The notes beneath the pieces were generated by a model. That model worked only from the letters and a program-made list of their open reading frames with translations, searched no databases and was not told the origin of the DNA. 64,000 bases of DNA from Batillaria attramentaria (lineage: Eukaryota > Mollusca > Gastropoda > Batillariidae): positions 166,001 to 230,000 of the forward strand of contig JACVVK020000473.1 of the NCBI GenBank assembly GCA_018292915.2, in the 5' to 3' direction. Each line of letters begins with the position of its first letter. Within the stretch, counting starts at the first letter, position 1. Shown in pieces: positions 2,176 to 43,476 of the stretch. Both the position numbers and the translations under genes were made by a program.

Positions 2176-2900
2176 ATGTGATCACACAGTCATGGACGGG
2201 GACACAGCTTCCAAGTTTGTTGCATCATTGGTAAAGTCGATCCAGGCTCTTTGCAATGGTTACATTGACTTTTCCTCAAGCATAGAAGTTATTGGACACA
2301 TCCACCTTAGGATCGATGAAAATAAAAAGTTCAATTACGTTCTCAGTGAGGAAGTAAGTAAGTCACAGAATGAAGCTGCCACAGTATTTTCCAGCCACTC
2401 GTACCACTCACAGCCACCTCAGACGACAACCACAGGCAGGACAGCACCTTCAGATTCTCCCAGTCGAAATCGTCGTAAAACACAGCAAGTACCTCGCGTG
2501 GATGAGTCAACGCTTCCACCAGATGTGCCTTCAGCTTCAAAAGACTCGAGATACAGTGACAGATTAGACAGTCCAGCATCACGTCGACTAAGTGACGGCG
2601 GTGACTCCCGTGACACAGACACTTTCCCCAGTGTGAGGAAACATGAACACAACAGTGGTGCTGGAAAGCAGTCAACTCCTTCACAAGACTCTTTTGACAG
2701 ACGGCGGAAATTACAACCTGACAGTGACACCCACTCTTCCCGATCTCAGGACCCTGTACCGAAAAAGAGCCGAACAGGTCTCTCACTCTCAGGCTCTGCG
2801 GCAGTTCAAAGCTCTGGTTTTGAAGTCATCGAGATAAAAGAGGAGCCAGCCGATGATGAATCAGGCGATTTCTTTGGGGACAATAATGCTGCAGGGCAAG
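2176..2900 (+). CDS. Common exon 2: N-terminal domain and acidic SUMO-like motif
   Basis: Translation probably starts at ATG 2192 (Kozak G at +4, first ATG in frame within the exon). It gives 236 codons plus one base. Residues about 5-55 look like a small folded domain with hydrophobic helix and strand patterning; I do not recognise the family, and it does not resemble BTB or SCAN by eye. Residues about 65-215 are Ser/Pro/Thr/Arg-rich and probably disordered, with several basic patches. Near the end, VIEIKEEPADDE contains IKEE, a psi-K-x-E sumoylation consensus followed by acids, a motif common in transcription factors. The donor is CAAG/GTGAAT at 2900. If not spliced, the frame stops after three more codons (2908), giving a short protein without a DNA-binding end. 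Confidence 0.85.
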
Positions 2901-4509
2901 GTGAATAACTCTTGGTGAAGTTTGCCCTAGTTACTAAGTTAGCACTGTAGTACTTTGTAAATTTCCTGCTGTGTAGAGGATATTATTTTGTATTGTATTA
3001 CTCTGGATTTCCTCTAGGTGTGAATACTGTGATTTTTTTATGATTAAATTTTAAAAGTTATTTGCTGTAGCTAATGTGGCAGTTGTGTATACATGTCAGA
3101 TCTAGTATCACGTCTGTTCTGTCTGTGATATCTCTAGTCTGAGCAGCGTTTTAGTTCTTTTATTCATTTCTACTAACTTGTAAAAAAAAAAAAATTCAAT
3201 GTTGTTGACGCTGTTTAGTTTTTATGACAGACTCTGTTATCCATAATTCAGTGATTGCCTGAATCTCTCATTCTCTGTTCTGGAACTAAGTATGTAATTT
3301 GCTTTGACATGCTTAGAGGTGCCAACTAGTACGGATTGGCCGTATTATTTTCCGCTTAACTCAAAATTTTAAATATGGAAATCCGGTTTGGTCGGGAAAA
3401 AATAAGGAAGAGAAAAATTTGACCGAAGTTTGTTACATCAACTTTTTTTTTTTTTTTTTTGGGTGTGATTTGCCAGCTGTAACCCTTGAACTGGAGGTTG
3501 TGGCCAATCACAGTTTAGTTTCTTGAACAATGAGCCAATCGTAGCGCGTCTCAAGGGTTGACAAAATGGCGCGAAGTGGAGTCAACACAGCTTCGGGCCA
3601 ACGCAACCTTATTCACGAACGGCCACGAAGCAGGCTATCAATGAATAATTATGATATCAAATGCATCAAAAGTATTTCTGCGGAGCTGGATAACATGGAG
3701 GCCTTCTCATGCATCTTAGCCATTATGGTTTCCATCATAACTGACATGGGTAGTCAGTGGCTCAGAAAAGAAAGAAGCTATCAGTCCTTCCGAAACAGAA
3801 ACGTGGATTTGTTGTCACAGACAAAGAAACAGCGGTGACACATGCAGAATTGTTGATCGCTTTCAGAGTGAGCGCATCAGAATTCAGACCCCTCCGGTTA
3901 TCTGATTCGTGTCCCGATATATATTTCAAAAAGATCGTTTGGAAGTACAGCTGTGCATGAACCAAAAACGACAGAATTAGTGTAACCTTTCAGTTCTGAC
4001 AGCAAGTCACAGCGTGCCGTACCTGTAGTAGTTGATGTATATATTCTCAGACTGTTTGCTGTTCAAATAGGCAATTCTGCCTGTAGTTAGCTGTCTCCGA
4101 CAGCGGAATCCCACGTGTTTGGTCATTCAGACGTTTTCATGCTGAATTTATTGATTACTATTAAAATGAAACAAATGATGATAACAGGAGTCAGCTCAGG
4201 TCTGGAGCTTTACAGCTTTCTCTAGGCGAGAATTGCTTTGCGTTTTCACTTTTGGTTTGTTTACACAGTGTGTGTGTGCACTCACACTTTAGCGCTGTAA
4301 CTATAAGTGATATATTCTGTGTGTGTTTGCTTTTTTTTTTCCTTTTGTACGGCAGAATACTGACAAGTGCCGAAAAATACTGATGTTTGTGCGAAATAGT
4401 ACTGACAGACACTTTTGGGGTTGGCGCCTCTGCATGCTCGTTTGGAACTGGATTTCGCATACAGTTGCTTTACGTTTAGTTTTACCTATAGTGTCCCGTT
4501 TGTCTTCAG
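2901..4509 (+). other. Intron 2 and possible 3' UTR of an unspliced short form
   Basis: Begins at donor GTGAAT 2901 and ends at TGTCTTCAG 4509. ATTAAA near 3042 could serve as a polyadenylation signal for a short transcript that reads through exon 2. Most of the rest is a hAT-like element listed separately. Confidence 0.5.
3314..4432. mobile_element. Non-autonomous hAT-like element in intron 2
   Basis: The left end is TAGAGGTGCCAAC and the right end GTTGGCGCCTCTG, an inverted pair with two differences. The ends are flanked by the direct repeat CATGCT (3308-3313 and 4433-4438), consistent with a decayed target-site duplication. Ends of the form CAGAGG/TAGAGG with 8-bp duplications are typical of hAT elements. 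The inside has a T-run near 3442-3462 and an unassigned open frame at 3566-3838. No transposase motif was recognised, so it is probably non-autonomous. Confidence 0.6.
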
Positions 4510-4752
4510 ATATCAGTCAGCCAGACTTCAGTAATCTTGTTGCCGACAGTCTGGACCGTGTGGGTCAGCTGGAAGGAACATCATTGCTGGCAGGTGGTGA
4601 TGCACAGCAGATTCCAAGGCAGCAGCTCAGAGGACAGCAGGACCAGCCATTCCCAATAATGCTTCATGCCAATCCGACTGCCTCCACCAGCTCTACAGTG
4701 TCTTATCCAGGCCCTTCAGATCAGCAAGGAGCTGTGGCTTCTTCTAGTGGAG
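4510..4752 (+). CDS. Common exon 3: symmetric Gln/Ser-rich linker
   Basis: Acceptor TGTCTTCAG at 4509 and strong donor GGAG/GTAGGT at 4752. The exon is 243 bases, entered after one codon base and left after one codon base, so it is symmetric (1-1) and could be skipped without changing the frame. It encodes about 80 residues: a short acidic/hydrophobic start (ISQPDFSNLVADSLDRVGQL), then Gln-rich (about 30-50) and Ser/Thr/Pro-rich (about 55-80) sequence, probably a flexible linker or transactivation region. It lies directly before the array of terminal exons, which are all phase-matched to its donor. No known domain was seen. Confidence 0.8.
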
Positions 4753-7700: not shown

Positions 7701-8284
7701 ATAACATGGGTGATCGCTGATGGGATTGGGGGGGGGGGGGGGGGTATTCATAGTTGCATTGTCAATGTCATGGTTATGCCTTATGGGCAAGTTTTTCACT
7801 CTAATCACATGCCAAGTTTATGCAAGATCATATAGGACTGGTGAATGCTGGTGGAAGGAACATGTATACAAACTGGTGCAGTTGACAGAAACTAGCATGC
7901 TTTGAAATCACACATTTGTTTCATCTTTTTTCTCAAATTCTTGTCTTCAACATTTCGCTGATTGAACATTCATCTTTTCAGATGTTAGTTTCATAGTAAC
8001 TAAGTAATGGATAGATTGGTGTGTAGATTTAAAGAAAGCGCTTATTTCGTTTGGTTTAGTCTTGCTCATACAGCAAGTGTCTGTCGAACTCGCTTCAACT
8101 TCAAACGGTTTTCTGTTGACATAATTTTCAGACCTGTGCAAGTATGGCCAGTAAAAGCACCCACATAGGTTTCACTGAAGAGTATAGGTACATCAGTAAT
8201 CAGAAGTATGCTTCTGTTGTAGTTCTACTCAGTGTTGTGGTGATCTCACCATCTGTTCAACCTTCCCCTTTCCTTTCCTGTCAG
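4753..8284 (+). other. Large intron before the terminal-exon array
   Basis: About 3.5 kb from GTAGGT to the first terminal exon. It holds an AAC/A-rich tract and CA repeat (about 5505-5618), a C-rich and TC-rich tract near 7465-7508, and a G-run near 7728-7744. No extra phase-matched exon with a recognisable domain was found. If splice choice uses a docking site, as in Dscam, this intron is where to look. Confidence 0.5.
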
Positions 8285-8556
8285 GGATTTCTGGAAGTGT
8301 CCATGACCTTGTGGCCCATTTGGAATCCAGGGAGACAACAGTGGGGCACAGCTTCCCTGGCCCTGTGCAGCACTGCCTGTTGAGGATTCCAATGAGAGGG
8401 AAAAAGGAAAACCCACAAAAGTACTGCCGTGTGTGTAAACAGAGGGGGCATAGGCGTGACAGTCGTTTCCATTGCCCTGCATGCCCAGGGCAGCCAGGCT
8501 TGTGCAGAATGACAGACTGTTTTATGATTTATCACCAGCTGACTGACCAGCCATGA
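8285..8556 (+). CDS. Terminal exon T1: piggyBac-type zinc ribbon
   Basis: The acceptor is a long pyrimidine tract ending CTGTCAG at 8284. The joined first codon is GGG (Gly), followed by 89 residues to TGA. The domain is C-x2-C-x12-C-x2-C-x6-C-x4-C-x4-H near residues 45-80, with a basic run (RGHRRDSRFHC) between the first two Cys pairs. This matches the C-terminal zinc ribbon of piggyBac transposases in Cys spacing and in the PxLC...CFxxYH ending. The lead includes LRIPMRGKKENPQ, equivalent to the RIPxTKxK lead of its sisters. Likely a DNA- or chromatin-binding isoform end. The last ATG-independent start is set by the splice site. Confidence 0.82.
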
Positions 8557-8914
8557 TGTTCGGTTGTTACGCGAAATCCGCCTGACATAAAGGTACTGCA
8601 TTAGTTGATAACTTGTCAGTACTTTGTGAAGGCTTGCCATGCTGGTTCTGTTCCCGTTTGGTTGCACATGGGTGATTGTTATCAGGGCCACAACGCACCT
8701 TATTACTTTCTCATCCAGGTGATACAGTACATGTATGCACTGTAAGGTTTATATTCACCCTGAGAAAGTGCGTTCCTGTATTTGTGCCATCTGAGAAAAT
8801 GCGGGTCTTAAGATATTGTCCGATTACTTATTTTACAAGGTATGGCAGTGTGGTATTGCAATCAGCACTGACTTGGGGCCTGACAACCTGTCTTTACCCT
8901 TGCCTTTCCTTCAG

Positions 8915-9237
8915 GCAGTGCTGGTGCAGCTCTGGTGGCTCAGCTGGAACCAATAGAGTTTGGTGGTGACGAGCCTGGAGACTACCAGGTTTCTCAGTTC
9001 TGGCATCAGCAGCATCGCCTTGAACGCATCCCCCCGACAGAGAGAAAGGCCAACTCGCAGAAGAAATGCCGTGTGTGCAGGAAAAGGGGGATAAGAAGTG
9101 ATAGCCGTTTCCAGTGCCCAGTTTGCCCAGGTCAACCTGGTCTGTGTAGATCAAAGGACTGCTTCGAGGTGTATCACCAGTCTTTTGGGATGATTGATCC
9201 ACTAGTTGAGCGGGACCACATGAATTCTTCTTTATGA
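8915..9237 (+). CDS. Terminal exon T2: piggyBac-type zinc ribbon
   Basis: Acceptor CCTTTCCTTCAG at 8914; first codon GGC (Gly), then 106 residues. It has the lead ERIPPTERKANSQKK and the ribbon C-x2-C-x12-C-x2-C-x6-C-x4-C-x4-H ending in CFEVYHQ. A short tail follows (GMIDPLVERDHMNSSL). A second AG three bases downstream (GCAG) is a possible NAGNAG-like alternative but would break the phase. It is the paralogue of T1 and T3-T6; the first bases after the acceptor (GCAGTG) match T3. Confidence 0.82.
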
Positions 9238-9647
9238 GGAGAACTGGCTACCTCCACTGTTCCTTCGTGTTTCCTTTGATTTCAAAGGTTCCTACTACTG
9301 CAGATAGATCTATGCAAACCTGTGTGTGTATGCCCCCTTCGAAGTAAAGAACTGACTCCACTGTCCACAGCTTCCTATTTGAGTGCAGCAGTTACCTATT
9401 GCATCACACACTGCACACACACCAGCTGGAGCGGCTTTAATTTGAAAGAGATTGCAGCACACAGGATCCACACATGAACACAGAATGCATTTTCCCAGTT
9501 GCTATATGATAAGCGCAGTACTGTGATATAACTCAGTAACTATGAATTTAACTGTGAATGCTATTTTGAATCATCTTAGATATGGTCTTCTAAATCTAAT
9601 GCATTTGAGAGCTGCGAGTTCAATTATTCCTTTGGGTTTCCTGCCAG

Positions 9648-9904
9648 GCAGTGCAGTCTTGGTCGCCAGGATTGCTTCAGATGTGACCACTCACGAGTGG
9701 ATGGAAGGCAGCCTTGCATCTAACCAAGCTCACTTCCTGGCTCGCATCCCAGCTACGAAAAACAGAATCGCCCCTCAGAAAAGATGTCGTGTGTGCTACA
9801 ACAGAGGGCTTCGGCGGGACAGTTGTTACATCTGCCCTGTCTGTCCAAAGCAACCTGGTCTCTGCAGAATTGGAGACTGTTTTAAGGTTTATCACCAGAC
9901 TTAA
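9648..9904 (+). CDS. Terminal exon T3: piggyBac-type zinc ribbon
   Basis: Acceptor TTTCCTGCCAG at 9647; first codon GGC (Gly), then 84 residues ending one residue after the YHQ of the ribbon. The lead is LARIPATKNRIAPQKR and the Cys/His pattern is C-x2-C-x12-C-x2-C-x6-C-x4-C-x4-H (CRVC, CPVC, GLC, DCFKVYH). It is the shortest ribbon isoform, so the ribbon closes the protein. The frame is open upstream of the acceptor only by chance. Confidence 0.82.
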
Positions 9905-10681
9905 CAGAAGTGAGAACTTAAACTTGTTGAGGCGTGTGTCGTTTTTGTTGTGTGCTTCTTGCTCACCTAGCGTGTTTTGGAATCCATGTTTCATTATAAC
10001 GCTATCCTGGATGGAAAAGTTGCAAAGGATGTCTGGAAATGATCTTCTCAGAATCAATTTCTGTTACTGTTGTACGCTGTGATAGGTGCCTTGCATGGCT
10101 GGTGTAGAATGTCCGGATTTAAGACACTGGCTGTTGTGTTCAGTTATGTTTCATCAAATTCAGACTAGCTTGCTTTGTGTAAGGACAAGACAAGGTTAAC
10201 AAGGAGAAACTGGCTGGTCAAAGCATGCTGTGTCTATGTGCCTGGATCAAAGGCAGGATTTTGTCAGGGAAAATGTTTCCACTCGGAGTTGAGAATGTGG
10301 AGTTGTTAGTGTTTGTATTTGGATACAACACTACATGTACTTGTAAAACTTCTTATTTTGTCTGCGTTGGTGCTTGAGACCTTCTACTGTTTATATTAGA
10401 ATTGGTCACCGGAAGTCTAAATTTATTTCATTATTATGTTTGGTCACTTTTTATTTTTTACTGTTACGTTTTGTTTGTTTGCGAGTCTGTGTACTGGCAG
10501 TAACAGCAATAAACAATTCTCTGCAAGAGAAATTACAGTATTTTGGCTGTTTGTTTAATACAAATGCCAGAGGGTGGGGAATTAAGTGAGTAGCAGAGTT
10601 AATAACATTTAGAGAACAAACATGAAACGGTTGAGAGAAAAAATGCTCCAGTTCAATTATATCTTTGCCTTTTACTGCCAG

Positions 10682-10968
10682 GGGTGGTTGGGAGCAGTGC
10701 TGATTCTACGGGGAGTGCACCAATTGATGTTGTTTACGGTGACATGGAGCTAGGCCACTTGCCATGGCATCAATGGGAAGGACATCACTTGACACGCATT
10801 CCACCAACGAAGAAGAAAGCTGATCCTCAGAAAAGGTGCTATGTGTGCTTCCGTAGGGAAGGGAAGCGACGGGACAGTTACTTCCATTGCCCTGTTTGCC
10901 CTACACAGCCTGGCCTCTGCAAAACCAAAGACTGTTTCATTTTCTATCACCAGTCTGTGGACGTCTAG
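10682..10968 (+). CDS. Terminal exon T4: piggyBac-type zinc ribbon
   Basis: Acceptor GCCTTTTACTGCCAG at 10681; first codon GGG (Gly), then 94 residues. Lead LTRIPPTKKKADPQKR, then C-x2-C-x13-C-x2-C-x6-C-x4-C-x4-H; the loop is one residue longer than in its sisters (RREGKRRDSYFH). It ends CFIFYHQSVDV. An ATG does not begin this exon; translation enters through the spliced codon. Confidence 0.82.
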
Positions 10969-11437
10969 AACATAATGCTCTTCATGTGAGAAATCGACTC
11001 GTCTTGAGACACAAACTGCACTAAATTAGTTACATTTGTATGTTGTGTTTACAGCGTTCAGTGTTTTGTATTCTTGGGACAACTTCAGCCACATGTTCAG
11101 GTTATCAAAAAAAATGCAAAACAACAACAACAACAACCAAAAAACCCCACAAATTCCTAGGTAAAATCACCTGTATCTAGCCATGCGTTGCTTGCTGAGC
11201 AATCTGTGCCAACCACCAATCTCTCCTTTTTGGAAATGAATGATGCCGGGCGAGCTGTGCTGCATATGTATTGTTTTTTTGTTTTTTTTTTGCAGCGTAT
11301 GTCTGTTGGAGAATATATATGCTGGGGGTCTTTTGCCAGTTTGCATGCAAAGCGATTTAATTTTGAAACACTTTTAAGTAGTGCAAACAGTTCCAATGAA
11401 AATGCACCAAGTGTAGCTGATTTACCTTTTCTGCCAG

Positions 11438-11760
11438 GCATTGGTGGGTGCGGTGCTGCTCTGATGACAGAGATGGTGGACATTTTCCATTGTGGGATGG
11501 ATCATGGCCTAATCCCTCCACATCATCTGGCTCGCATACCAGCAACTAAGATGAAGGAAAACCCTCTGAAACGATGCAGAGTGTGCTATAAACGAGGACA
11601 GCGGCGTGACAGTTACTTTCACTGCCCTGCCTGTCCAACTCAGCCAGGACTGTGCAAATCCAGAGACTGCTTTGATGTGTTTCACCAGTTTATGCAGCAA
11701 GACTTAATTGTAGACAGATCAAATGAAATGCCTCATTCTGGGGTGGCTCAAAAACAGTAG
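11438..11760 (+). CDS. Terminal exon T5: piggyBac-type zinc ribbon
   Basis: Acceptor TACCTTTTCTGCCAG at 11437; first codon GGC (Gly), then 106 residues. Lead HLARIPATKMKENPLKR, ribbon C-x2-C-x12-C-x2-C-x6-C-x4-C-x4-H (CRVC, CPAC, GLC, DCFDVFH), with Phe replacing the usual Tyr before His. A 27-residue polar tail follows. The frame upstream of the acceptor is open for 84 codons but is low-complexity and crosses a T-run, so it is not counted as coding. Confidence 0.82.
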
Positions 11761-12966
11761 GTAATAATAAGGATGGGTGCTGTACCTTGCTGTGTCACTA
11801 TCAATCAGTGCTTATTTGTGTTTTAGTGCTGTTCACAAATTTCTGTCCAGCTTTTGCAAGCAGAATTTGCTTTTTGCAGCTTGCAACAAGGGGAAACAGT
11901 GTTTGAAGGTAGATGTGTGGTGTAAAAAATCTTACCAGTTTTCCAGTGTACAAGTCATCTTCAGGGATGGATTTACTCAAAAATGCCAATGAGACATGTC
12001 ATTGACCAGTCATTTTTATAAGACATTTTCGTTTTCTATGAGACAGTCAAGTTCACCCGTATCACTCTGTCACATGTCTGTGCCGAGAACGTGTTCCTTA
12101 GTGCAGTGACGTTCAGGTTCTGAAAGCCTCATCACTAAAATTAGATTAGTGTAACAGACTCCATGACTGACACGGACAGCGCATCTCTGCTTCGCGTTGT
12201 CTGGTGCGCTTGTGATGTCATGTTCGTGGGACATATGACGCATTTTGTGAAAATTTCTATGCGACATTTTATCAAAATGTGAGACATAGTCGCACGGCGC
12301 GTGAGAAAATTGATCCCTGCATCTTGCGTGGTTGTTTCCTTAGTTCAGATCAGGAAGGGCAATTGGAGAGGACTTGTACATGGTGTGTCGACATTGTTCT
12401 TTACTCTTTAGAATGAGAGAGGAATTCAGTCATAACAACGTCCATGGAAGTGTTCTGTCCGGTCTCACAAGGTCATTATTTACATGCCTGTTGACGTCAG
12501 TGTTTAAGATAAGGAAGTTTTTGTGACATTCATTGTCACTTACTTCAAGCGGCCCACTGTAGGAATGGCAACTCGCAGAGTGTTGGAAAAGTGTTTCGAA
12601 GGGACGGTGTAACTCCTCTCTGACTATGTTTGCTCTGTGTAGGTTTTGTTTTCCTTTGTGTGCAAATTGTGGGTTTAACATGACAGGAGAGTGTCGCTTC
12701 ACAACACTCGGGACCCTTGTGGTGTAACTGATCAGTAGACATACATTTTGGTTCATATCTTGGCAGTGACGACCCAGAGAAGGCTCCGATTTTGCTTGTG
12801 CTTTTAACATCATATTTGTAAGCAGCCCAGCCCGGAATGTTAGCTTGGAAAAGTTAACTTGTGTCCATTTAGAATAAAAGCTGATTGAAAATGTTGGTGA
12901 TATGCCTGCTGTTGTCAAGTGTATTCTAGCTCCTAGTTCAACTTTTTCCTTTGCCTTTCCTGCCAG

Positions 12967-13274
12967 GCGTTGTTTGGAGTGGGAGGTCGGTGCCTGGTGA
13001 GGAAGCCATTTCTGGGTGGACAGAGCACAGCCACTTACTAGTGCATGGTCATCACTTGGCTCGCATCCCAGCCACAAAGAAGAAGGACTATCCTCGGAAA
13101 CGGTGCAATGTGTGTTATAAGCGAGGGGTGAGGCGCGACAGTTTCTACCACTGCCCGGTCTGTCCAGCTCAGCCTGGGCTGTGTAGAAGCAGGGACTGTT
13201 TTGTGGTCTATCACCAGTTGTATGCCCAGAAAGTTCCTCATCAAAGAAGCAGAGATAATTTGCAGAAGAATTAG
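12967..13274 (+). CDS. Terminal exon T6: piggyBac-type zinc ribbon
   Basis: Acceptor TTTGCCTTTCCTGCCAG at 12966; first codon GGC (Gly), then 101 residues. Lead HHLARIPATKKKDYPRKR, then C-x2-C-x12-C-x2-C-x6-C-x4-C-x4-H (CNVC, CPVC, GLC, DCFVVYH). A basic tail of about 20 residues (Lys/Arg/Gln-rich) follows and could add DNA contacts or a nuclear signal. Last member of the first ribbon block. T3, T5 and T6 share almost the same acceptor block and RIPATK lead, which suggests they are the closest relatives. Confidence 0.82.
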
Positions 13275-14288
13275 TGTTTTTTCTTCATGTCGTTTTTAAA
13301 CACAGATTTTAGAAGGTGTTGGTTCTTTCCTATTCCACATTATGAATACAGTTACTTCCAGTTCAATGGAGTGGAATTCCAACCTTGCATCAGCTAACAG
13401 TCCTCACTTAAGAACTTGAGTTTTGGAATCATTACAGTGGGCTTTTGGCCCAGGCAGACATGTTTGAAGAACAGTTCCAATGAAGGATGGTGTGAAACAG
13501 CTTGTGTCTGGCACCCCAGGTATTTGGGAGGGGGGGGGGGGGGGGGCTTGCCTGTCAGTGTATTCTGACGTCAGTTGTGTTGCATTGTGGAGAGTAAACA
13601 GTCGGTCCCTCCACTAGTTCTAGGAACAGGTAATGTTGCTGTTTTAGTTTGAGAGAAGACCGCTACTTCTGTTGTGTTTGTTTTTAAAAAGTTGTAGAGT
13701 AACCTAGTAACAACATGCATAACAATATGCTAAAGCCCAAAACCAAGAGAGATTGATCTTCAAAGCCAGAACACTCTAAAGATTCTATTTGCACTGTGTT
13801 TAGGGAGTTCAGAATTTCACATTGGATGATTTCAGCACTAATGTCTGACTGACTGACTGACCCAACACCAAATGTGTAGTTACTGATTATTGTGGAAGAT
13901 GTTCTTCGCAAGAGTGTGCTTGTACATGTATGTATAAATACACATTGCACCATTTTACCATGTTTCAAATAGATAATTGCTGAACGATTATGTACGTGAC
14001 ATGAGTTTGTGTGCATCAGTTGCTCTTGTAAGTTGTGTGGTGGTTTTTTGTTGACTGCAACAATAAAATATTCACAGTTTTTTTTCCTCTCTGGCTTTCT
14101 GCCGTGGAAAGGGATGGTGTGTGTGTGCGTGCATGCGTGCCCCAATTATAGAACAGCAACAGCAAAAGTCCAGAAGTTCATCTGTTTGAGTTTTGTACAA
14201 GCTGTTAGAAGTGATGGTAAAAATGCTGCAAAACTGTTGTTCCGCGTTCGGTTTTCAAACAGTGACAAGCTGTTTGTTTTTGTTGCAG

Positions 14289-14590
14289 CTTATCGTGATC
14301 CTAGGCCAGTATCTGCTTCAGCAACACACAATGGTCTAGACATACATCAACCAGCAATGCAGTACTTTGGAATCCAGGAGCACACACAAATTCCACACCA
14401 TCTTTCATATGGCAGACAGAGTAGTGCAGCCAATTTGTACGGACCTCGCACTAAATACTGGCGTAACATGAGTGAGGAAAGGCGTATTGTGGAGAGGGAA
14501 AAATCTCGACTGAGAATGCAGTTGTCAAGAGCTCGCAGGCGGAAGCGTGAGCAGGCAGAGAAGATGAAAGACCCCTTACAGTCTTCTTAA
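14289..14590 (+). CDS. Terminal exon T7: arginine-rich basic module
   Basis: Acceptor TTTTTGTTGCAG at 14288; first codon GCT (Ala), then 99 residues. The first 55 are His/Gln/Ser/Tyr-rich. Residues about 62-92 form a highly charged, probably helical stretch (MSEERRIVEREKSRLRMQL then SRARRRKREQAEK). The stretch could bind DNA as a basic helix. It is clearly related to T8 (shared SEE...R-x-R...RAR+R pattern) and not to the ribbons or HTHs. It distantly recalls basic repeats such as STPR (FMBP-1) or bZIP basic regions, but there is no leucine heptad. Function is inferred only. Confidence 0.72.
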
Positions 14591-15448: not shown

Positions 15449-15786
15449 TGGTGGGTGGTGCTCATCCAATCTTGTCAGGGGTCTGGTCTGTTGGAGCAGA
15501 AAGGCTGCACGCAGTTGGCCTTAGTAGGGAGGTTGTGGCATATCCAGCTGGAGATGTAGACTGCAATAGGCAACTGTCCTTCTACCGTTCAAGGCAAAGA
15601 GGAGATGGGCACGGGAACCGCCTGGGTGGGCGAGCTGCTGCCAGTGACGTCAGTGAGGAAGTTCGTGTACGAAGGGAGAGAGTTCGTCTTCGAGTGCAAG
15701 CGCACCGTGCCCGGAAACGAGCAGCTCAACTGGCAGCTCAAGAACTGGCCATGGCTGCTACTCAGCCAGGGAGTGATCTTGCCTGA
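15449..15786 (+). CDS. Terminal exon T8: arginine-rich basic module
   Basis: Acceptor TGTGTATTTTCAG at 15448; first codon GTG (Val), then 111 residues. After a non-conserved Gly/Val-rich lead, residues about 70-100 are basic and Ala/Arg/Gln-rich (SEEVRVRRERVRLRVQ, then RARKRAAQ). Aligning with T7 puts SEE, RLR, and RARKR/RARRR in register, so the two are duplicated exons. The tail after the helix is Ala-rich. An overlapping frame (15605-15850) is judged a shadow because it lacks the phase and the resemblance. Confidence 0.7.
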
Positions 15787-18252: not shown

Positions 18253-18767
18253 GGGATGAGGATGTGGATGTGAAGAGTGTCGGGAAGTTGAAGACGGAGA
18301 TTGTAGTACCTGGTACAGTGTTTGTTGGCGCGTACAGGGAATACACCGCTGATGATGTAGCAGAGGCCATAGAACTAGTGCATGGCGGGATGCCGGTCAT
18401 CGATGCAGCATTCAGATTTGGCATTCCGCGTGCCACACTGTTCGTACGTTCTCGCCAGGGTTGCCCAACACACACAGGGCGCTGTTCTACTGTGTTCGCT
18501 CGTACGCACCAGGAGGCAGCTGCCTCAGCCAGGAGAAACCGACCCAAGTTGCAGTACACGAAAGAGGCTGTTGAGGCTGCCATTGACGCTGTGCACAACG
18601 GTGTGCCTGTCATTGACGCTGCCATCCAGTTTAATATTCCACGGGCCACTCTCTTTAATCGCTCGGGCAAGGGTTGTCCTACTCATGAGGGAAGGTGCTC
18701 CACAGTGTTCAGTGATGGGCAGTTACGCAGAACTTCAAAGAAGAGGTTCCAGATCACTTTCGAATAG
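18253..18767 (+). CDS. Terminal exon T9: two tandem Pipsqueak-type HTH domains
   Basis: Acceptor TGTCTGTTGCAG at 18252; first codon GGG (Gly), then 170 residues. It carries two HTH copies (about residues 28-80 and 98-150), with leads YREYTADDVAEAIELVHGG and LQYTKEAVEAAIDAVHNG. Each continues DAA...IPRATLF and ends with the same tail GCPTH-x-GRCSTVF. All other HTH exons carry one copy. The pair looks like an internal duplication. The tail here is C-x2-H-x3-C rather than C-x3-H-x3-C. Psq motifs bind DNA best as tandem repeats in Drosophila Pipsqueak, so this isoform could bind alone. Confidence 0.8.
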
Positions 18768-20051: not shown

Positions 20052-20165
20052 AGGATACATACGAAGAGGCAAATGATTTTGAAGAGGATGATGATGACCT
20101 GCCCATTGAGATAGATATTGCCCATTGGCTACTTCAGTACCTCCTTCAAGGGTTAGGCTGCCAAA
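20052..20165 (+). CDS. Alternative acidic start of T10 region (other frame)
   Basis: The acceptor TCCTCTTTTGTTCCAG at 20051 is stronger than the one used for the HTH frame. It joins in phase (GAG, Glu) and gives a very acidic peptide (DTYEEANDFEEDDDDLPIEI...), stopping at about 20165 before the HTH. Either this is a short acidic isoform, a skipped splice site, or an indel in the assembly has broken one longer acidic-plus-HTH exon. The sequence alone cannot tell. Confidence 0.4.
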
Positions 20166-20535
20166 AGTGAAATCCTCTCGCACATCTGCCCCAAGTAAAC
20201 CACCAAAATCAAAGAAAGGGGAAAAAACGAAGCGGCGTTTTTACAAACAGTATGCTCCAGGCGATCTGGAAACTGCCATACAAATGGTGAACAGTCGTCA
20301 GTGCACTTGCGCCTATGCTGCCGATAAGTACAACATTCCTGTTTCAACACTTCAGAAGAAGGCAGCCTTAGTCATGAGGTCGTCTGGGCAGTTTAGAAAA
20401 AGAGGGCGACCCAAGAAACGTGGACAGAGTGGAAAGTCAGCTATAGCGTCATCAGGAGGGGGGAAAACATTTGCACCTGCCTCACGTGGTGGATCAAGAA
20501 AGGCGCGTCTCACTTGTGATTTCCGTTACATGTAG
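20138..20535 (+). CDS. Terminal exon T10: HTH with basic, AT-hook-like tail
   Basis: The open frame with the HTH needs an acceptor at 20137 (GGCTACTTCAG); first codon GTA (Val), then 131 residues. Lys/Ser/Pro-rich lead (about 1-30), HTH at about 32-80 (RFYKQYAPGDLETAIQMVN then YAADKYNIPVSTLQKKAA), then RKRGRPKKRGQ, a good AT-hook core, and a Gly/Ser/Arg tail. It lacks the His and the C-H-C tail of most sister HTHs. A stronger-looking acceptor lies 86 bases upstream (20051) and leads to a different frame; see the separate entry. Confidence 0.65.
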
Positions 20536-22376: not shown

Positions 22377-22684
22377 AATACTGGCAAACAACAGCAAGCT
22401 ACCCACACACCCTTTACAGCAATGAAGGCTTGCCTGGTTTACTGATGTACAGCAGAGCTAATAGACCACGTATGCAGTACGAACCAGAAGACATGCTGGC
22501 TGCTATTGCAGACGTAGACAACGGGAAAGTGGTGCGCCAGGCTGCGGCAGATCACGGGATACCTCTCAGGTCGCTTTACCATCGACTGAAGTGTCGCAGC
22601 AATCAACAAAAACGTGAAGAACTCAAGAAGCAGGCATCCTCAGAGCCTGCCAGCGTTGAAGATGACACTGGAGAGAGGAGTTGA
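22377..22684 (+). CDS. Terminal exon T11: Pipsqueak-type HTH without C-H-C tail
   Basis: Acceptor CATATTTCTTTTCCAG at 22376; first codon GAA (Glu), then 101 residues. Aromatic lead (YWQTTASYPHTLY), HTH at about 36-75 (MQYEPEDMLAAIADVDNGK, then AAADHGIPLRSLYHRLK), followed by Lys/Glu-rich tail. It lacks both the conserved His before the turn and the C-x3-H-x3-C tail, grouping it with T10, T21 and T22. Only about 225 bases separate it from T12. Confidence 0.78.
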
Positions 22685-22909: not shown

Positions 22910-23202
22910 GCGTTTCCCTTTCCTGCCTGAGGCAGCCACGGAAGGGGCCATTAAGAAAGGGACGTGGCTGTTACAAGCAGTATTCTGTTGAGGACATGCG
23001 AGCAGCTGTGGTAGCTGTGCACTGGGGAACTACCATAAGATGGGCAGCAAAGAATTATTGTGTCCCAGCAAAGACGCCTGATTCGCGAATCAGATCCTGC
23101 AAGAAAGGCCATCCAGGCAGGTGTATTGGGGCTTATACATCATACTCACAATTTGCTAAACAGAATGATGATTGTGAAACGAGAGCTTTGCAGTCATGGT
23201 GA
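22910..23202 (+). CDS. Terminal exon T12: Pipsqueak-type HTH with diverged recognition helix
   Basis: Acceptor CTTTTTGTTTCCAG at 22909; first codon GGC (Gly), then 96 residues. Basic lead, then YKQYSVEDMRAAVVAVHWGT, IRWAAKNYCVPAKTPDSRI and the tail C-x3-H-x3-C-x-GAY (CKKGHPGRCIGAY). The usual IPRSTL at the start of the recognition helix is VPAKTPDSR here, with a helix-breaking Pro, so DNA binding may be altered. The region after 23202 has no further open frame. Confidence 0.75.
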
Positions 23203-25395: not shown

Positions 25396-25640
25396 ATTGT
25401 AATACCGCTCCAAGCTCTTCTCGGTATGGAGACACACGTGATCTGGGTTACAAGCTCTACTCTCAAGAAGATCTTCAAGTTGCTTTGGAAAAGGTTCACT
25501 GGGGCATGACGGTAGCGGAAGCAGCCAGTATTCACAGAGTTCCATACACAACCTTGTACAGATTCCAGAAGCAGTGTCCACATGGTCACAATGGCAGATG
25601 CCGAGGAGCTTACAATCTTTTGCAATCGCAGGATCCTTGA
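25396..25640 (+). CDS. Terminal exon T13: Pipsqueak-type HTH with C-H-C tail
   Basis: Acceptor TCTCTTTTTCACCAG at 25395; first codon GAT (Asp), then 80 residues. RDLGYKLYSQEDLQVALEKV leads into HWGMTVAEAA, VPYTTLYRFQKQ and the tail C-x3-H-x3-C-x-GAY (CPHGHNGRCRGAY). It is the first of five closely related exons (T13-T17) that share the HWGM core; T13-T15 also share the block CGTGATCT-GGTTACAAG at DNA level. A short tail of seven residues ends the protein. Confidence 0.83.
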
Positions 25641-26444: not shown

Positions 26445-26746
26445 ATTCATTCATCCTACGAGGTTCTCAGTACAGGAATCCACGTGATCTAGGTTACAAG
26501 CGCTACACCCAAGAAGCCCTTGATCTTGCTATGTTGAAAATTCACTGGGGCATGTCTTTATCAGAAGCCGCCTCAAAGTTCAACATTCCCAGATCAACCT
26601 TAAGTGACAAGCAGAGACAGTGTACACTTGGCCATGGAGGTAGATGCATTGGGGCTTTCCAGCGCCAGCACTGTGGAGGAGAGCAAGATCCAGCAAAGAG
26701 GGACTCACCTTACAGAGAGGAAGATGGGGCTGAGGTGTTGAGCTAG
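26445..26746 (+). CDS. Terminal exon T14: Pipsqueak-type HTH with C-H-C tail
   Basis: Acceptor GCTCTCTCTGTCTCCAG at 26444; first codon GAT (Asp), then 99 residues. PRDLGYKRYTQEALDLAMLK, IHWGMSLSEAASKF, NIPRSTLSDKQRQ, then CTLGHGGRCIGAF. A 28-residue Glu/Asp/Arg-rich tail follows. The acceptor block is almost the same as in T15, so the duplication that made them included intron sequence. An HTH module with a canonical IPRSTL recognition-helix start. Confidence 0.83.
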
Positions 26747-28427: not shown

Positions 28428-28687
28428 ATTTTGCAGCCTCAAGAAGGCGTGGGCGTCCTAGGAGCTCACGTGATCTAGGTTACAAGCGTTACAGACGTGA
28501 TGATCTGCTGTTAGCCCTGGAAAGTGTTCACTGGGGCATGTCATTACTGGAGGCGTCCAGAATCCACGGAGTTCCATGTACAACCCTGTTTCAGTTCCAA
28601 AAACAGTGCAGACAAGGTCACAATGGCAAGTGTAAAGGGGCATACAGTGCACAGGAAAGTCAGAATGCTTCAGAGGAAACACTGTGA
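28428..28687 (+). CDS. Terminal exon T15: HTH with C-H-C tail and AT-hook-like start
   Basis: Acceptor CTCTTTCTGTCTCCAG at 28427; first codon GAT (Asp), then 85 residues. The lead RRRGRPRSSRD contains the AT-hook core RGRP, then LGYKRYRRDDLLLALESV, HWGMSLLEASRI, VPCTTLFQFQKQ and CRQGHNGKCKGAY. The AT-hook next to the HTH could add minor-groove contact, as also suggested for T10 and T20. Close relative of T13 and T14. Confidence 0.83.
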
Positions 28688-30185: not shown

Positions 30186-30433
30186 ATTTTGTGGTCCAGA
30201 GACGTTTACAGCATAGAAAGGACTCAGGTGTTGCACATGTACGCAGGAAATACAGGAAGTACTCACAGGAGGCTGTCCACTTAGCTATGGAGACGATTCA
30301 CTGGGGCATGCACCCACAAGCTGCTGCTAGTAGACATGCCATTCCTAGATCCACCATATACAGGCTCATAAATCGATGTAAACAAGGCCACAGTGGTAGA
30401 TGTCAAGGAGCATATAAAATAGGTCATCTGTAA
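30186..30433 (+). CDS. Terminal exon T16: Pipsqueak-type HTH with C-H-C tail
   Basis: Acceptor TCTCTCTAATTCCAG at 30185; first codon GAT (Asp), then 81 residues. Basic lead, KYRKYSQEAVHLAMETI, HWGMHPQAAASRH, AIPRSTIYRLINR, CKQGHSGRCQGAY and five more residues. AATAAA near 30452 lies about 20 bases past the stop and would give an unusually short 3' UTR. Member of the T13-T17 group. Confidence 0.83.
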
Positions 30434-31056: not shown

Positions 31057-31331
31057 GTGCAGCCTGGACTGCACAGTTTCCGTACCACAAGCCCCGCTTC
31101 AGGAGGTTTGTAGGCAGATATAAGCAGTACTCGGCAGAAGCCCTTGAAGCGGCCATGGAGAAAGTCCACTGGGGCATGTCCATTTCGGAGGCTGCCGCTA
31201 AACACCGAGTTCCCCGAACCAGCTTGAGTTATTGTCAGAAACAGTGCACAAAAGGCCATGAAGGTAGATGTGTTGGGGCATTCAAACGTGAACGAGAGAA
31301 GCAGCTAACAGTATTTGGAGAGGCGTCTTAA
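31057..31331 (+). CDS. Terminal exon T17: Pipsqueak-type HTH with C-H-C tail
   Basis: Acceptor GCTCTTTCTGTTTCCAG at 31056; first codon GGT (Gly), then 90 residues. Lead rich in aromatic and basic residues (FPYHKPRFRRFVGRYKQY), then SAEALEAAMEKV, HWGMSISEAAAKH, VPRTSLSYCQKQ, CTKGHEGRCVGAF, and a Lys/Glu/Arg tail. Last of the HWGM group before the large transposon-filled gap. Confidence 0.83.
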
Positions 31332-32884: not shown

Positions 32885-32940
<56 letters not shown>

Positions 32941-33867: not shown

Positions 33868-33938
<71 letters not shown>

Positions 33939-34707: not shown

Positions 34708-34940
34708 TCGTTGTACAGCGAGGTGAAAATGTGCCTTCACTGAGAGGCCTCCGTACACGATACTCACAGTACTCAAACAGGGATATGGCCACAGCTATTG
34801 ACATGGTCCACAGGGGCATTGGTGTGCATCAGGCGGCCAGCCATTGTTCAGTCCCAAAGCGCTCTTTGTATCGTCGGCTGGCCAACTGCACGGCTGGTCA
34901 TCCGGGCAAGTGTCTTGGCGCATATTTTCAAGTGCACTAA
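34708..34940 (+). CDS. Terminal exon T18: Pipsqueak-type HTH with C-H-C tail
   Basis: Acceptor TTTCCTTTCTTTTCCAG at 34707; first codon GTC (Val), then 76 residues, the shortest isoform end together with T20. RGLRTRYSQYSNRDMATAID, MVHRGIGVHQAASH, SVPKRSLYRRLAN, then CTAGHPGKCLGAY and four residues. With T19 and T20 it forms a second HTH subgroup (first codon Val, acceptor CTTTTCCAGT, [PR]xSLYxRLA recognition helix in T18/T20). Confidence 0.83.
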
Positions 34941-36246: not shown

Positions 36247-36506
36247 TGCTTCAAATATTCAATCTACCACGTTCGTCATGGATTATCAGTACCCTAATGG
36301 AACATAGTTTGGTAGTGGAAGATATAAGTACCTGTAATAGGCTTCACTTTTGGATAGTTCGAATTGTAGATGATTCTGGTATACAGTTAAGTTGGTATGT
36401 TTGTGGTGTTTTCCATCTTGTGGTTTCGCAGTGGGTTTATCTCCTTCAGAAAACGGACGTGGGCGTTTCCAAGCAAATCTGATGGGGTGTTCATTTTCTT
36501 TTCCAG

Positions 36507-36934
36507 TTAACCACCTTACCATGCCAAGGGGCCAGACTGAAAGGAGAGGCTCCCATTACCCACACACAAGGTACTCTGAAGAGGAAATGACCAGAGCTGT
36601 GGATATGGTCCACAGAGGGGTTGGCGTTGAACGTGCTGCGGACTTGTGCGCCGTCCCCCGCCGTACGCTGTCCCGTTGGTTGACAAAGTGCAAAGCTGAC
36701 CACCCAAGAGGGAGATGTCATGGAGCATTCCTGCAGTCACCAGTTGATGGTGTCTCCAGTGAACAAAATGCCTTGCAGTACTATGAATATGACTTCGGTG
36801 GGATCACAGGAGCTTTGTCTCACTCACAGGCTACACCCGGTCACGTTTCAGACTGTGCGATGCATGCATCAGAGTCTGCAACACTGGCAGGCACTAGTCT
36901 CCTAACAGAAGCACAAGAGTACTCACAAAGCTGA
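36507..36934 (+). CDS. Terminal exon T19: HTH with C-H-C tail and long C-terminus
   Basis: Acceptor TCATTTTCTTTTCCAG at 36506; first codon GTT (Val), then 141 residues. HTH at about 18-70: TRYSEEEMTRAVDMV, HRGVGVERAADL, AVPRRTLSRWLTK, then CKADHPRGRCHGAF. The tail has one extra residue (C-x3-H-x4-C). A 70-residue Ser/Gln/Tyr-rich end follows, possibly an activation or interaction region. The frame runs upstream past the acceptor but without similarity. Confidence 0.82.
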
Positions 36935-37496: not shown

Positions 37497-37570
<74 letters not shown>

Positions 37571-38186: not shown

Positions 38187-38419
38187 TTGGACGGCCCCGG
38201 AGAGACAAGTTGGGTGTCAACCAAAGGCGAGGAAGCTTGTACAAGAAATATAGTCGGGAGGACATGGACAGAGCAATAGATCTTGTGCACTGGGGGACCA
38301 GCGTTCCGCGTGCTTCCAGCCAGTGCTCCATTCCAGCACGCTCCCTCTATGATCGTCTCGCCACTTGTGCGCTTAACCACCCGGGCAAATGTCGTGGGGC
38401 ATTTGCTTTTCAGCAGTGA
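38187..38419 (+). CDS. Terminal exon T20: Pipsqueak-type HTH with C-H-C tail
   Basis: Acceptor TCGCTTCCTTTTCCAG at 38186; first codon GTT (Val), then 76 residues. The lead begins GRPRRDK, an AT-hook-like core, then LYKKYSREDMDRAIDLV, HWGTSVPRASSQ, SIPARSLYDRLAT, CALNHPGKCRGAF and four residues. The tail keeps Cys, His and Cys in place although GH is NH here. Relative of T18 and T19. Confidence 0.83.
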
Positions 38420-39749: not shown

Positions 39750-40003
39750 ATACTTTCCTGGAAATGAGGGGGTTATTAGACGAGGGGTGCCTGGTTGATA
39801 CGCGAAATGCCCTGAACCGCTACCCCCAGCTGAATGAAGCTGTAAACAGAGTTCTGCAAGGGGAGACTGCGGCGTCCGTATCTGTGCGATACGGCGTGCC
39901 CCGCACCACGCTACGCAGGCATGTGCGTCGTGCAGCGGAAATGCAGCAGGAGGGCAATTCCAGGGCAGCGGATAGTGACTTTCTGCGGGGATATTTTGAT
40001 TGA
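39750..40003 (+). CDS. Terminal exon T21: compact HTH without C-H-C tail
   Basis: Acceptor TGTCTCTGTGTTCCAG at 39749; first codon GAT (Asp), then 83 residues. HTH at about 20-60: YPQLNEAVNRVLQGETAASV then RYGVPRTTLRRHVRRAA. It lacks the conserved His and the C-H-C tail. It pairs with T22 (GVPR-x-TLRRHV-x-RA in both), so the two are sister exons. The end is short, acidic and aromatic. Confidence 0.78.
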
Positions 40004-40542: not shown

Positions 40543-40670
40543 TTGAGGTAGACAGTGCATTCTCGTTCACAGACCTGTCGGAATGGGTCCATTCTCACAG
40601 ACCTGCTCTGTCTGTCGTATGTTTCAGGGAGGTTCCCGCAATCGTCACCAACAGAACGCCTGTGGTATGA
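40543..40670 (+). CDS. Alternative start of T22 region (other frame)
   Basis: The acceptor TTCCTCTTTTCCTACAG at 40542 has the strongest tract in this part. Joining in phase gives GTT (Val) and a 42-residue peptide (EVDSAFSFTDLSEWVHSHRP...) that stops at 40670 inside the HTH exon without reading the HTH. As at T10 it is a short isoform, an unused site, or a sign of an assembly indel. Confidence 0.4.
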
Positions 40671-40944
40671 ACAAGAACGAGACACCGCAGGCTGGACCAA
40701 GCACAAGCACCCTATGCCACTCATGTCATGTGCAGTTCAGGAAGTCGTTAGTGGGCAGTCCCTCCGGTGTGTGGGCAAGAAGTACGGGGTGCCACGTGAA
40801 ACGCTCCGAAGGCATGTTTTGCGTGCTCTTGCTGAAACCACGAGACGCACCTCTCAACAGGCAGTGGCATCAACGCTCAGCTCAGCAGCGACTCCTATGT
40901 TTGCACAAGAGCCTAGCGGAAACAATCCTCATGCAAGCTTTTAG
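40628..40944 (+). CDS. Terminal exon T22: compact HTH without C-H-C tail
   Basis: The HTH frame needs the acceptor at 40627 (TGTCGTATGTTTCAG, good pyrimidine tract upstream); first codon GGG (Gly), then 104 residues. HTH at about 28-70: HPMPLMSCAVQEVVSGQSL then KKYGVPRETLRRHVLRALAE. Lacks the His and the C-H-C tail, like T21. A Ser/Thr/Ala-rich end follows. A second strong acceptor 85 bases upstream opens another frame; see the separate entry. Confidence 0.7.
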
Positions 40945-41604: not shown

Positions 41605-41647
<43 letters not shown>

Positions 41648-41825
41648 TTTTGGCTGTGTAAGGAAACTTATGAATTGGTAATTGATGTTTATGTAATTTG
41701 AGTCTGCTTTAAGGAGTTAACTTGATTAAATCTGTGTTTGTTACAGTGTGTACTGATTGTTAGTTGTTCAAAGTAAAATTTAAATTGTACCATACCTACG
41801 CTAATGAAACTGTCTTACACACACA

Positions 41826-42215
41826 CAGGGCCGGATCCAGGGGGGGGTTCCACAGGTTCTGGAACCCCCCCCCCCCCCCCTGCAAATGACATGTACCTGT
41901 AGATGGACGTTTTTTTTTTGTTTTTTTTTTTAATCCATGTCAGCCGGGACCCAAATTTATTCATGGTCAAATCCGATGAGAAAAGTGGTACCACCCCCCC
42001 CCCCCCCCCCCCCCCCCCCGCCCTTCCGCCCTCGGAGCGCACCCATCCGATGCCGATAACAGAAAAGATTACAATCTTGTCTACAAACCTTGATAAACAG
42101 CTTAGACATAGGCTTTCAAGCTGTCCTGATGCCCCCTGCACCCCCATTGGGGGAGACCCCCAAACCCCCCCAAAAAATTTTGGAACCCCCCCCTTCTATA
42201 CCCCTTGATCCGGCC

Positions 42216-42218
<3 letters not shown>
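41826..42218. mobile_element. hAT-like MITE inserted in a CA repeat
   Basis: Ends are CAGGGCCGGATCCAGGGG and, inverted, CCCCTTGATCCGGCCCTG. The CAGGG start is typical of hAT. On both sides lies CA-repeat sequence (ACACACA before, CACACACA after), so the element landed in a microsatellite and its target duplication cannot be separated. The interior holds long C-runs, including one of about 25 near 41995-42019, and has no transposase. Confidence 0.65.
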
Positions 42219-42265
<47 letters not shown>

Positions 42266-42308
42266 ACATATTGGGGGGGGGGGGCTGTTACTCAGAAGAC
42301 ATTTTGTG

Positions 42309-42358
<50 letters not shown>

Positions 42359-42401
42359 ACATATTGGGGGGGGGGGGCTGTTACTCAGAAGACATTTTGT
42401 G

Positions 42402-42440
<39 letters not shown>

Positions 42441-42450
42441 AGAGAGAGAG
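42219..42450 (+). repeat. Duplicated CA-repeat / G-run unit
   Basis: Two copies of a unit made of a CA repeat, AACACACACATATTG, a run of 10-12 G, then CTGTTACTCAGAAGAC and ATTTTGTGAAAC (about 42258-42311 and 42351-42403), ending in a CA repeat followed by GA repeats. A local tandem duplication of about 92 bases. Confidence 0.75.
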
Positions 42451-42793
42451 GGAGAGAGGTTACAAAGACTAGAGCCACATTTAATGAAAGATACCAGGCA
42501 AATCTGTTTATCTGGTACATAATCATCTCAGGGACTGTGATGTGCACCTGGAAACATAAGCTCTGGCTACAACGTACATTACACCGCCACATGAAATCAC
42601 TGCATGCCAACAACTGTGTTGCAGAATTCCTTACAAAGTATATTCCAAGAGAACACTATTGGGTACTTCATAGCTGAAGCAGGTAAATTCTGTTAGCCTG
42701 TTTGTGTGTATGTATGTGCGCTGAGTAAGTGGTAATCTGTGATCAGCGAACGACTCCCAGCTTTACTTCACCCATCTCATTTTTCTGTTGCAG

Positions 42794-43476
42794 ATACTAC
42801 AGAAGAACCTTACAGCAGCTCAATACAACCTGTCTACAGGCCAAGGACATACCACTCCAGTGAACCCTTGCCACCAGGGTACAGGCCAGAGGATCTGCCC
42901 GACAGCATCACAGGGGAGGATCGTGCCCGACTGACAGAAAGCCACTTCTGTGAACGCATCCCTCCCACGGCTGCCAAGAAGCACCCAAGCAGGCGGTGCA
43001 AAGTGTGCCTTGCACGTAGAGGCTACACCCCAGGCGGCCAGAGAAAGTACCCCAAAGAGACGACTTACCACTGCGGCAAGTGTCCTTCTAAGCCTGCCCT
43101 GTGCACCCACCCATGTTTCTGGTTGTATCACAACAAAGTCAAGTATGACGGCCCTATTGATGATGAGGAAATGCAACAGATCCCTCCCATGCTGCAAAAT
43201 GTGCCATTGTCCCTCACCGACATGAGCACGGGGCAGGGCATGAGCAGTGCTAGCAGCTTTGTTTCTGTTGCTGATTCTGGCAGCAGTTACGGTGATTACA
43301 CCACTAACTATGGCGCTGGTAGTTCAGGTGGCTTTTCACACGATGGCAGAGGCGCAAATGTTTTTGCTAGTCCTAACAATGGATCCCAAGGCGATGGTGA
43401 TGTGCAGAGCATGGAAGACGTCAAGGTTTACCCTATGCCTATGTATGGGGAGACAACATACCCCGAGAGACGTTGA
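42794..43476 (+). CDS. Terminal exon T23: canonical piggyBac-type zinc ribbon with long tail
   Basis: Acceptor CATTTTTCTGTTGCAG at 42793; first codon GAT (Asp), then 226 residues, the largest terminal exon. Tyr/Pro/Ser-rich lead (1-45); CERIPPTAAKKHPSRR at about 51-67; ribbon C-x2-C-x21-C-x2-C-x6-C-x3-C-x4-H at about 70-115 (CKVC, CGKC, PALCTHPCFWLYH). The C-x3-C spacing and PALCxxPCFxxYH are as in canonical piggyBac transposases, unlike the x4 spacing of T1-T6, so T23 may be closest to the founder. An acidic hinge and a Ser/Gly/Tyr-rich tail (about 130-226) follow. No transposase catalytic domain is present. Confidence 0.84.

Follow-up and report, generated by a model that had tools for sequence, protein, structure and literature searches.

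A shared head followed by 23 predicted alternative terminal exons in the snail Batillaria attramentaria

We examined a stretch of 64,000 nucleotides (nt), hereafter the window, from the genome of the caenogastropod Batillaria attramentaria (GCA_018292915.2, contig JACVVK020000473.1, positions 166,001 to 230,000), in which two shared coding exons are followed by an array of 23 terminal exons, or cassettes. Very probably, this is one gene that yields a family of nuclear proteins through the choice among alternative terminal exons. All 23 cassettes are present at 8285-43476, every one on the + strand, and each has the pyrimidine tract, AG, common entry phase and own stop codon with which the original prediction had credited it. 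The further proposal of a single gene with swappable ends is well supported by the entry phase, by the isoforms of relatives and by a sister locus that replicates the arrangement, with the amendment that the locus has a head-to-head partner. Coordinates prefixed C473 are contig coordinates (window position + 166000 = C473 position); all others are window positions (Table 1).

In the proposed mechanism, a single promoter and coding exons 2 and 3 would give each product the same head of about 317 residues, and the exon 3 donor at 4753 would be spliced to any one of the 23 acceptors downstream, each entered in phase 1. The chosen cassette would then add a short, stop-terminated end, which can be a C-terminal zinc ribbon of the piggyBac-transposase kind, a Psq-type helix-turn-helix (HTH) or a basic segment. 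Exons 2 and 3 together code for 317 residues and, as had been claimed, each ends one base (G) into a codon. Because both donors leave the same base, exon 3 can be skipped in frame, and the exon 2 donor could be joined to a cassette instead. We infer that Batillaria uses all 23 ends, that they are joined in cis and bind DNA, and what role the head plays. The anatomy of the locus, its phase, its conservation, the sister locus and the isoform proteins of relatives are read from the sequences themselves.

Results

Entry phase and boundaries of the cassettes

Acceptors were scored with a generic matrix that is blind to phase, and domain starts were chosen by hand. When the 400 nt before the domain are searched, the best AG is a phase-1 site in 19 of 23 cassettes (P = 1.7e-6), and when the search is kept to the open frame it is one in 22 (P = 5e-10; the exception is cassette 5); these P values assume independent cassettes and overstate the case, since local duplication means that the cassettes are not independent trials. 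Among the 20 top-scoring + strand acceptors of the whole 64 kb, 12 are cassette acceptors, and the - strand has one site that reaches that score. The acceptors of shared exons 2 and 3 score lower, at 3.8 each. No in-frame ATG lies between the upstream stop and the domain in 14 of 23 cassettes, and a canonical AATAAA or ATTAAA precedes the next acceptor in 14 of 23. Some gaps between cassettes measure just 226-411 nt, and the longest reach 3.4 kb. We searched both strands of the window for a 24th cassette with cassette-derived profiles and found none (best other match E = 0.038).

Head and tails in other snails

One search with a joined isoform returned 41 proteins, and two profile searches of 5.8 billion proteins, in which scoring covered the 8000 candidates with the most shared words, gave 43 matches each. 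The organisms named among the profile matches are Batillaria, Pomacea, Littorina, Babylonia and Nucella, with P0039, P0041 and P0043 as more distant matches. A wider family beyond the named caenogastropods was not found among the 8000 scored candidates, which is weak evidence of absence elsewhere. The annotated Batillaria protein BaRGS_00035397 (P0001) consists of the head (100% identity) and cassette 2 (100% identity).

The suggestion that the exon 2/3 protein be sought in other molluscs bore fruit, with heads carrying several tails in Pomacea, Littorina and Babylonia, where isoforms agree as far as one common residue and diverge beyond it; these snails are known here from proteins alone, not from genomic arrays. 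In Pomacea LOC112564035 the same 323-residue head carries six distinct tails. Copy A of Littorina saxatilis also has six; five of these follow a common 297-residue prefix, and the sixth lacks an alanine where exon 3 begins. Copy B has two tails on one head. Babylonia has two loci, with five and three tails. The difference of one alanine between Littorina P0010 and P0014 falls at the exon 2/3 junction and is as a NAGNAG acceptor would give.

Other entries also join the head to a single tail. P0022 (373 residues on 1171 nt) has the head and a basic tail, P0024 (408 residues on 1628 nt) the head and a ribbon-variant tail, and P0039 (687 residues on 2342 nt) the head and a double-Psq tail. All three are read as complementary DNA because their sequences are too short for kilobase introns. 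P0009, which has a transcript-style name, joins the head to a ribbon.

The first residue of the tail fits a G-starting codon in 22 of 22 tails and an A-starting codon in 7 of 7 tails of the Babylonia 889-like paralogue group (background 31% and 35% for G and A), a split made after seeing the tails and with the junction set by the STSG motif where an entry has no sister isoform. This is the pattern that a phase-1 junction demands.

Of 28 tails from other snails and other database entries, 20 match a window cassette at E <= 1e-3, as does that of the sister locus, and the best tail match outside the cassettes in the window has E = 0.006. Since the remaining eight tails have no window match at that threshold, the make-up of the cassette arrays, as far as it can be read from these proteins, varies from species to species; the database has an incomplete set of isoforms for each. 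Nothing in the window corresponds to the tail of P0008 (Pomacea X5), a protein from a cluster of 17 members. The resemblance of this tail to a BEN domain (E = 0.09) falls below the cut-off and is not claimed.

The shared head

In an alignment of 20 heads there are 34 invariant columns, of which 32 lie within residues 1-76 and the remaining two are K216 and E218 of an IKEEP motif. IKEEP reads as a putative SUMO-type site and the KRSR stretch of the head as a putative nuclear signal; IKEEP is not kept in the more distant homologue P0043. At the level of sequence comparison, exons 2 and 3 match 0 Pfam families at E <= 1, so that no BTB/POZ domain was found, and a 21-row head profile finds no related sequence in the PDB. 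The most likely roles of the head would be contacts for dimerisation or with cofactors, entry into the nucleus and the provision of a SUMO-type site.

Exon 2 read into its own intron (2901-2908) meets a stop two codons past the junction. Homologues such as P0030-P0034, P0036 and P0037 likewise pass the end of exon 2 and stop some 10 to 60 residues later. Because of this early intron stop and these entries, a short product of the head alone is possible.

Domain types of the ends

Seven ends (1-6 and 23) are piggyBac-type ribbons, two (7-8) are Arg/Lys-rich basic segments and 14 (9-22) are Psq-like HTHs. The original prediction needs correcting in that two of its 23 ends, cassettes 7 and 8, are basic and neither ribbon nor Psq. 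The grouping by domain type that it described is borne out by the order along the array (4 runs, P = 5e-5). The ends would choose the DNA.

Pfam was run on 18 of 23 cassettes (2-5 and 20 were left out). zf-Tnp_2 (PF13842) is above the cut-off in cassettes 6 and 23 and is a precomputed label for cassette 2. A joint profile of the seven window ribbons and four relatives matches residues 518-577 of the piggyBat transposase (E = 3.3e-9). By zf-Tnp_2 and this profile, the seven ends are assigned to the piggyBac-derived ribbons. A second profile, built from 13 window Psq cassettes, finds LCoR (E = 1.7e-8) and CG11849 (E = 5.6e-4).

piggyBac transposases and their domesticated derivatives have a C-terminal cysteine-rich ribbon in common with these ends. 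Unlike the transposases, the window exons were seen to hold only the ribbon: a scan for a DDE transposase domain in the + strand read-through frames of 8000-14001 and 42001-44882 gave no match, and is weak in that it also missed its own positive, the known ribbon of cassette 6.

A head-to-head sister locus

A paralogous second head lies on the - strand just to the left of the window, and the whole sister locus spans C473:134530-164879. Its 12 cassettes had no part in forming the hypothesis, and the blind best acceptor is in phase 1 in 11 of them (P = 5e-5 if independent). One sister cassette pairs with window cassette 11 (56% of 59 residues) and another with the P0024 tail (53% of 87). CpG observed/expected ratios peak near C473 165.0-166.0 kb and 167.25-167.75 kb, the second peak (window 1250-1750) lying at candidate exon 1; the two peaks suggest two back-to-back promoters. 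No cassette was found at E <= 1e-3 in C473:66001-122500. A run of N at C473:122501-130000 may conceal more cassettes.

The strands of the two arrays bear on a first alternative, namely that the plan is correct and the ends are joined mainly in trans, with cassette clusters that have their own promoters and are trans-spliced to head transcripts. Such joining is known for many mod(mdg4) ends and one lola end, according to PMC4528330, and the longer stretches between cassettes, of up to 3.4 kb, could hold promoters. However, all 23 window cassettes and all 12 sister cassettes share the strand of their respective heads, so trans joining is not required, and the shortest gaps leave just a few hundred nucleotides between neighbours. 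We consider this alternative improbable and prefer the choice of terminal exons within one transcript.

Age and constraint of the cassettes

Some cassettes are reciprocal best matches of tails from other snails or other database entries: cassette 7 of Babylonia X7 (78% of 37 residues; Pomacea X24, 71% of 38), cassette 9 of the P0039 tail (60% over 134, though the heads are just 31-38% identical), cassette 11 of Babylonia X3 (43% of 68) and cassette 23 of Babylonia X1 (40% over 214; a Littorina tail, 39% over 235). In trees, cassette 11 groups with a Babylonia tail (support 100/99), the cassette 23 group is supported at 100/99, and cassette 13 groups with Babylonia X8 (97/83); well-supported branches are few (1 of 9 in the ribbon tree, 4 of 25 in the Psq tree). 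The ribbon tree has 12 rows and includes one of two Nucella ribbons, the motif cut having omitted the Babylonia X6 and Littorina 13589a ribbons, both of which do match window ribbons. Babylonia, like Conus, is a neogastropod. The split between Batillaria and Conus is dated in PMC10382545 to about 230 million years ago.

Nearby cassettes are more alike (Mantel test: Psq r = -0.44, p = 0.0005; ribbons r = -0.42, p = 0.013), a pattern that local duplication gives. The array probably grew as members of a few old cassette lineages were duplicated locally in tandem, and the whole unit is present twice, head to head.

These comparisons also bear on the view that few ends are in use and that the majority of cassettes, though intact in appearance, are duplicates in decay. 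It would agree with the weak acceptors of some cassettes (8 and 10) and with the single end of the window locus seen as a Batillaria protein. Against it, all 23 cassettes are open with their stops in place, and third codon positions vary most in all three groups tested (ribbons 1-6, Psq 13-17 and Psq 18-20), the third-position difference in ribbons 1-6 being 0.57 versus 0.35 and 0.37 at the other positions. Cassettes 7, 9, 11 and 23 also argue against decay by their reciprocal matches, and 11 and 23 by the trees as well. We regard widespread decay as quite improbable, and a gene with a set of maintained alternative ends as the better account.

Observations that weigh against one gene with alternative ends

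Several results count against our interpretation. Head-tail joining in Batillaria is seen for cassette 2 only, in the annotated protein P0001, and the isoform names in the relatives are public annotation. An in-frame ATG does stand ahead of the domain in 9 of 23 window cassettes and in 8 of 12 sister cassettes (absent in 4 of 12), and the best acceptor of sister cassette p5 is out of phase. Nine of 23 cassettes (1, 2, 4, 11, 15, 18, 19, 20 and 21) have no canonical polyadenylation signal of their own, for which reason adjacent cassettes probably share some 3' ends. Inside 15 of 23 cassettes there is a GT whose donor score reaches the 95th percentile or more, the strongest being in cassettes 6, 12 and 22 (scores 5.3, 4.9 and 3.6), and the public model BaRGS_00035380 (P0002) merges three sister cassettes into one protein, which points either to an error of prediction or to internal cassette use. 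Given these donors and this model, some cassettes might occasionally also act as internal exons. As to domain identity, HTH_psq (PF05225) is above the curated cut-off in 11 of 13 scanned Psq-type cassettes, with 12 and 16 below it, and no Pfam domain passes the cut-off in cassettes 1, 7 and 8.

The cassettes could instead be independent small genes in tandem, or retro- or transposon-derived copies, with their own promoters downstream of an unrelated two-exon gene. This would suit the transposon-derived kinds of domain they carry, the public names of P0001 and P0015 (both starting 'PiggyBac transposable ele...') and the nine in-frame ATGs, but we reject both forms of this idea as very improbable in view of the 14 units without any in-frame ATG, the one entry phase common to all, the isoform sets in which other snails join the same head to different such tails, and the public Batillaria protein that joins the head to cassette 2.

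Coordinates of the features

All features are collected in Table 1, including three neighbours of the array in the window.

Table 1. Features of the window, the sister locus and the neighbourhood of the array. Every cassette row of the window rests on an AG acceptor, phase-1 entry and an own stop, besides the basis given. For donor scores, the 99th percentile of + strand GTs is 2.9.
Feature	Coordinates	Strand	Basis and remarks
Candidate 5' untranslated exon 1	1200..1501	+	start uncertain; predicted donor at 1502, score 3.1, >99th percentile of window + strand GTs
Shared exon 2	2176..2900	+	ATG 2192; encodes ~75-residue conserved head, nuclear-signal-like KRSR, IKEEP (SUMO-type) motif; donor leaves G
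Shared exon 3	4510..4752	+	donor at 4753 leaves G, score 5.6; contained in P0001
Cassette 1, piggyBac-type ribbon	8285..8556	+	no ribbon family match alone; member of joint ribbon alignment
Cassette 2, piggyBac-type ribbon	8915..9237	+	tail of annotated P0001 (BaRGS_00035397); precomputed PF13842 on P0001
Cassette 3, piggyBac-type ribbon	9648..9904	+	member of joint ribbon alignment
Cassette 4, piggyBac-type ribbon	10682..10968	+	member of joint ribbon alignment
Cassette 5, piggyBac-type ribbon	11438..11760	+	best in-frame AG is 11296, phase 0, outscoring 11438
Cassette 6, piggyBac-type ribbon (PF13842)	12967..13274	+	above Pfam cut-off; strong internal GT donor at 12997
Cassette 7, Arg/Lys-rich basic end	14289..14590	+	no Pfam family
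Cassette 8, Arg/Lys-rich basic end	15449..15786	+	alternative acceptor 15479 scores better than 15449; no Pfam family
Cassette 9, two Psq-type HTHs	18253..18767	+	HTH_psq above cut-off
Cassette 10, Psq-type HTH	20138..20535	+	weak acceptor, score 2.1
Cassette 11, Psq-type HTH	22377..22684	+	HTH_psq above cut-off
Cassette 12, Psq-like HTH	22910..23202	+	below Pfam cut-off
Cassette 13, Psq-type HTH	25396..25640	+	HTH_psq above cut-off
Cassette 14, Psq-type HTH	26445..26746	+	HTH_psq above cut-off
Cassette 15, Psq-type HTH	28428..28687	+	HTH_psq above cut-off
Cassette 16, Psq-like HTH	30186..30433	+	below Pfam cut-off
Cassette 17, Psq-type HTH	31057..31331	+	matches LCoR HTH, PDB 2cob, E 4e-4
Cassette 18, Psq-type HTH	34708..34940	+	HTH_psq above cut-off
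Cassette 19, Psq-type HTH	36507..36934	+	HTH_psq above cut-off
Cassette 20, Psq-like HTH	38187..38419	+	assigned by alignment
Cassette 21, Psq-type HTH	39750..40003	+	HTH_psq above cut-off
Cassette 22, Psq-type HTH	40628..40944	+	HTH_psq above cut-off
Cassette 23, long piggyBac-type ribbon end (PF13842)	42794..43476	+	above Pfam cut-off
Sister coding exon 2'	C473:164879-164174	-	donor leaves G
Sister exon 3'	C473:163631-163407	-	donor leaves G
Sister cassettes, 12	C473:162078 down to 134530	-	two ribbon-like, two basic, two other ribbons, six Psq-like
ADP-ribosylglycohydrolase gene exons	46772-52500	-	PF03747 in 3 of 4 open reading frames scanned; runs toward array 3' end
MULE transposase remnant	55478-55975	+	PF10551
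Tc1/Tc3-type transposase remnant	58328-59312	+	PF01498

Discussion

The original prediction likened the locus to lola and mod(mdg4), and the likeness holds for the plan. lola, as presented in PMC1947980, has at least 20 isoforms in which one N-terminal region is joined to unique C-terminal exons, most with zinc fingers; as in the Batillaria locus, one shared head is joined to many stop-ended ends. For mod(mdg4), PMC4528330 gives more than 30 isoforms with a common head and variable carboxy ends, at least 18 of them apparently trans-spliced, and here too a common head with variable C-terminal ends is what the two loci share. The differences lie in the parts. Whereas the lola head is a BTB domain, the Batillaria head is without a Pfam or PDB match, its ends are ribbons, Psq HTHs or basic segments, and the gene has a head-to-head sister. 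mod(mdg4) likewise has a BTB head and places some ends on the opposite strand, while the Batillaria ends are all on the strand of their head. The C2H2 and C2HC fingers of the lola and mod(mdg4) type were not found among the 18 of 23 ends scanned, which show zf-Tnp_2, HTH_psq and two basic segments instead. Because no BTB domain was found in the head and the ends differ, we do not file the locus with the lola/mod(mdg4) family.

A literature search of titles and abstract openings in the top-listed papers, with most subscription journals lying outside it, found no account of the locus or of such a plan in molluscs, in keeping with the earlier statement that no described locus of this plan with piggyBac ribbons and Psq HTHs was known. 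Psq HTH domains themselves have been recorded in molluscs. Mukherjee and Moroz (2023; PMC10027918) list 16 HTH-Psq factors for Aplysia and 15 for Biomphalaria, neither set having direct homologues in the other snail, and the Psq HTH is regarded there as transposon-derived. These expansions and the Batillaria ends have the Psq HTH in common. In PMC10027918, as far as its account goes, the Psq proteins are counted as genome-encoded transcription factors, whereas the Batillaria Psq domains would be alternative ends of one gene; the terms 'isoform' and 'alternative splicing' have 0 occurrences in the main text of that paper. One lead is that some Psq factors of Aplysia or Biomphalaria may come from loci of this kind, as alternative ends.

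A broader and speculative picture, which we think rather unlikely, is that the caenogastropod head-to-head gene pair is a growing library of transposon-derived DNA-binding domains on a lineage-specific head, perhaps assembled from and partly aimed at mobile elements and supplying, through the choice of terminal exon, a diversifying range of genome-surveillance or chromatin factors. In Batillaria such a library would hold at least 35 ends (ribbons, Psq HTHs and basic segments), with a possible BEN-like end in Pomacea.

The plan of one head with many DNA-binding ends is best known from insect BTB genes. It is met here in molluscs with an unrelated-looking head and other domains, and this occurrence points to convergent invention. 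The array may, as originally proposed, give one regulator about two dozen DNA specificities. The locus makes it testable how transcription-factor diversity can come from exon choice instead of gene number, together with the capture and multiplication of transposon-derived DNA-binding domains, and its head of about 75 conserved residues is a clean target for structure work.

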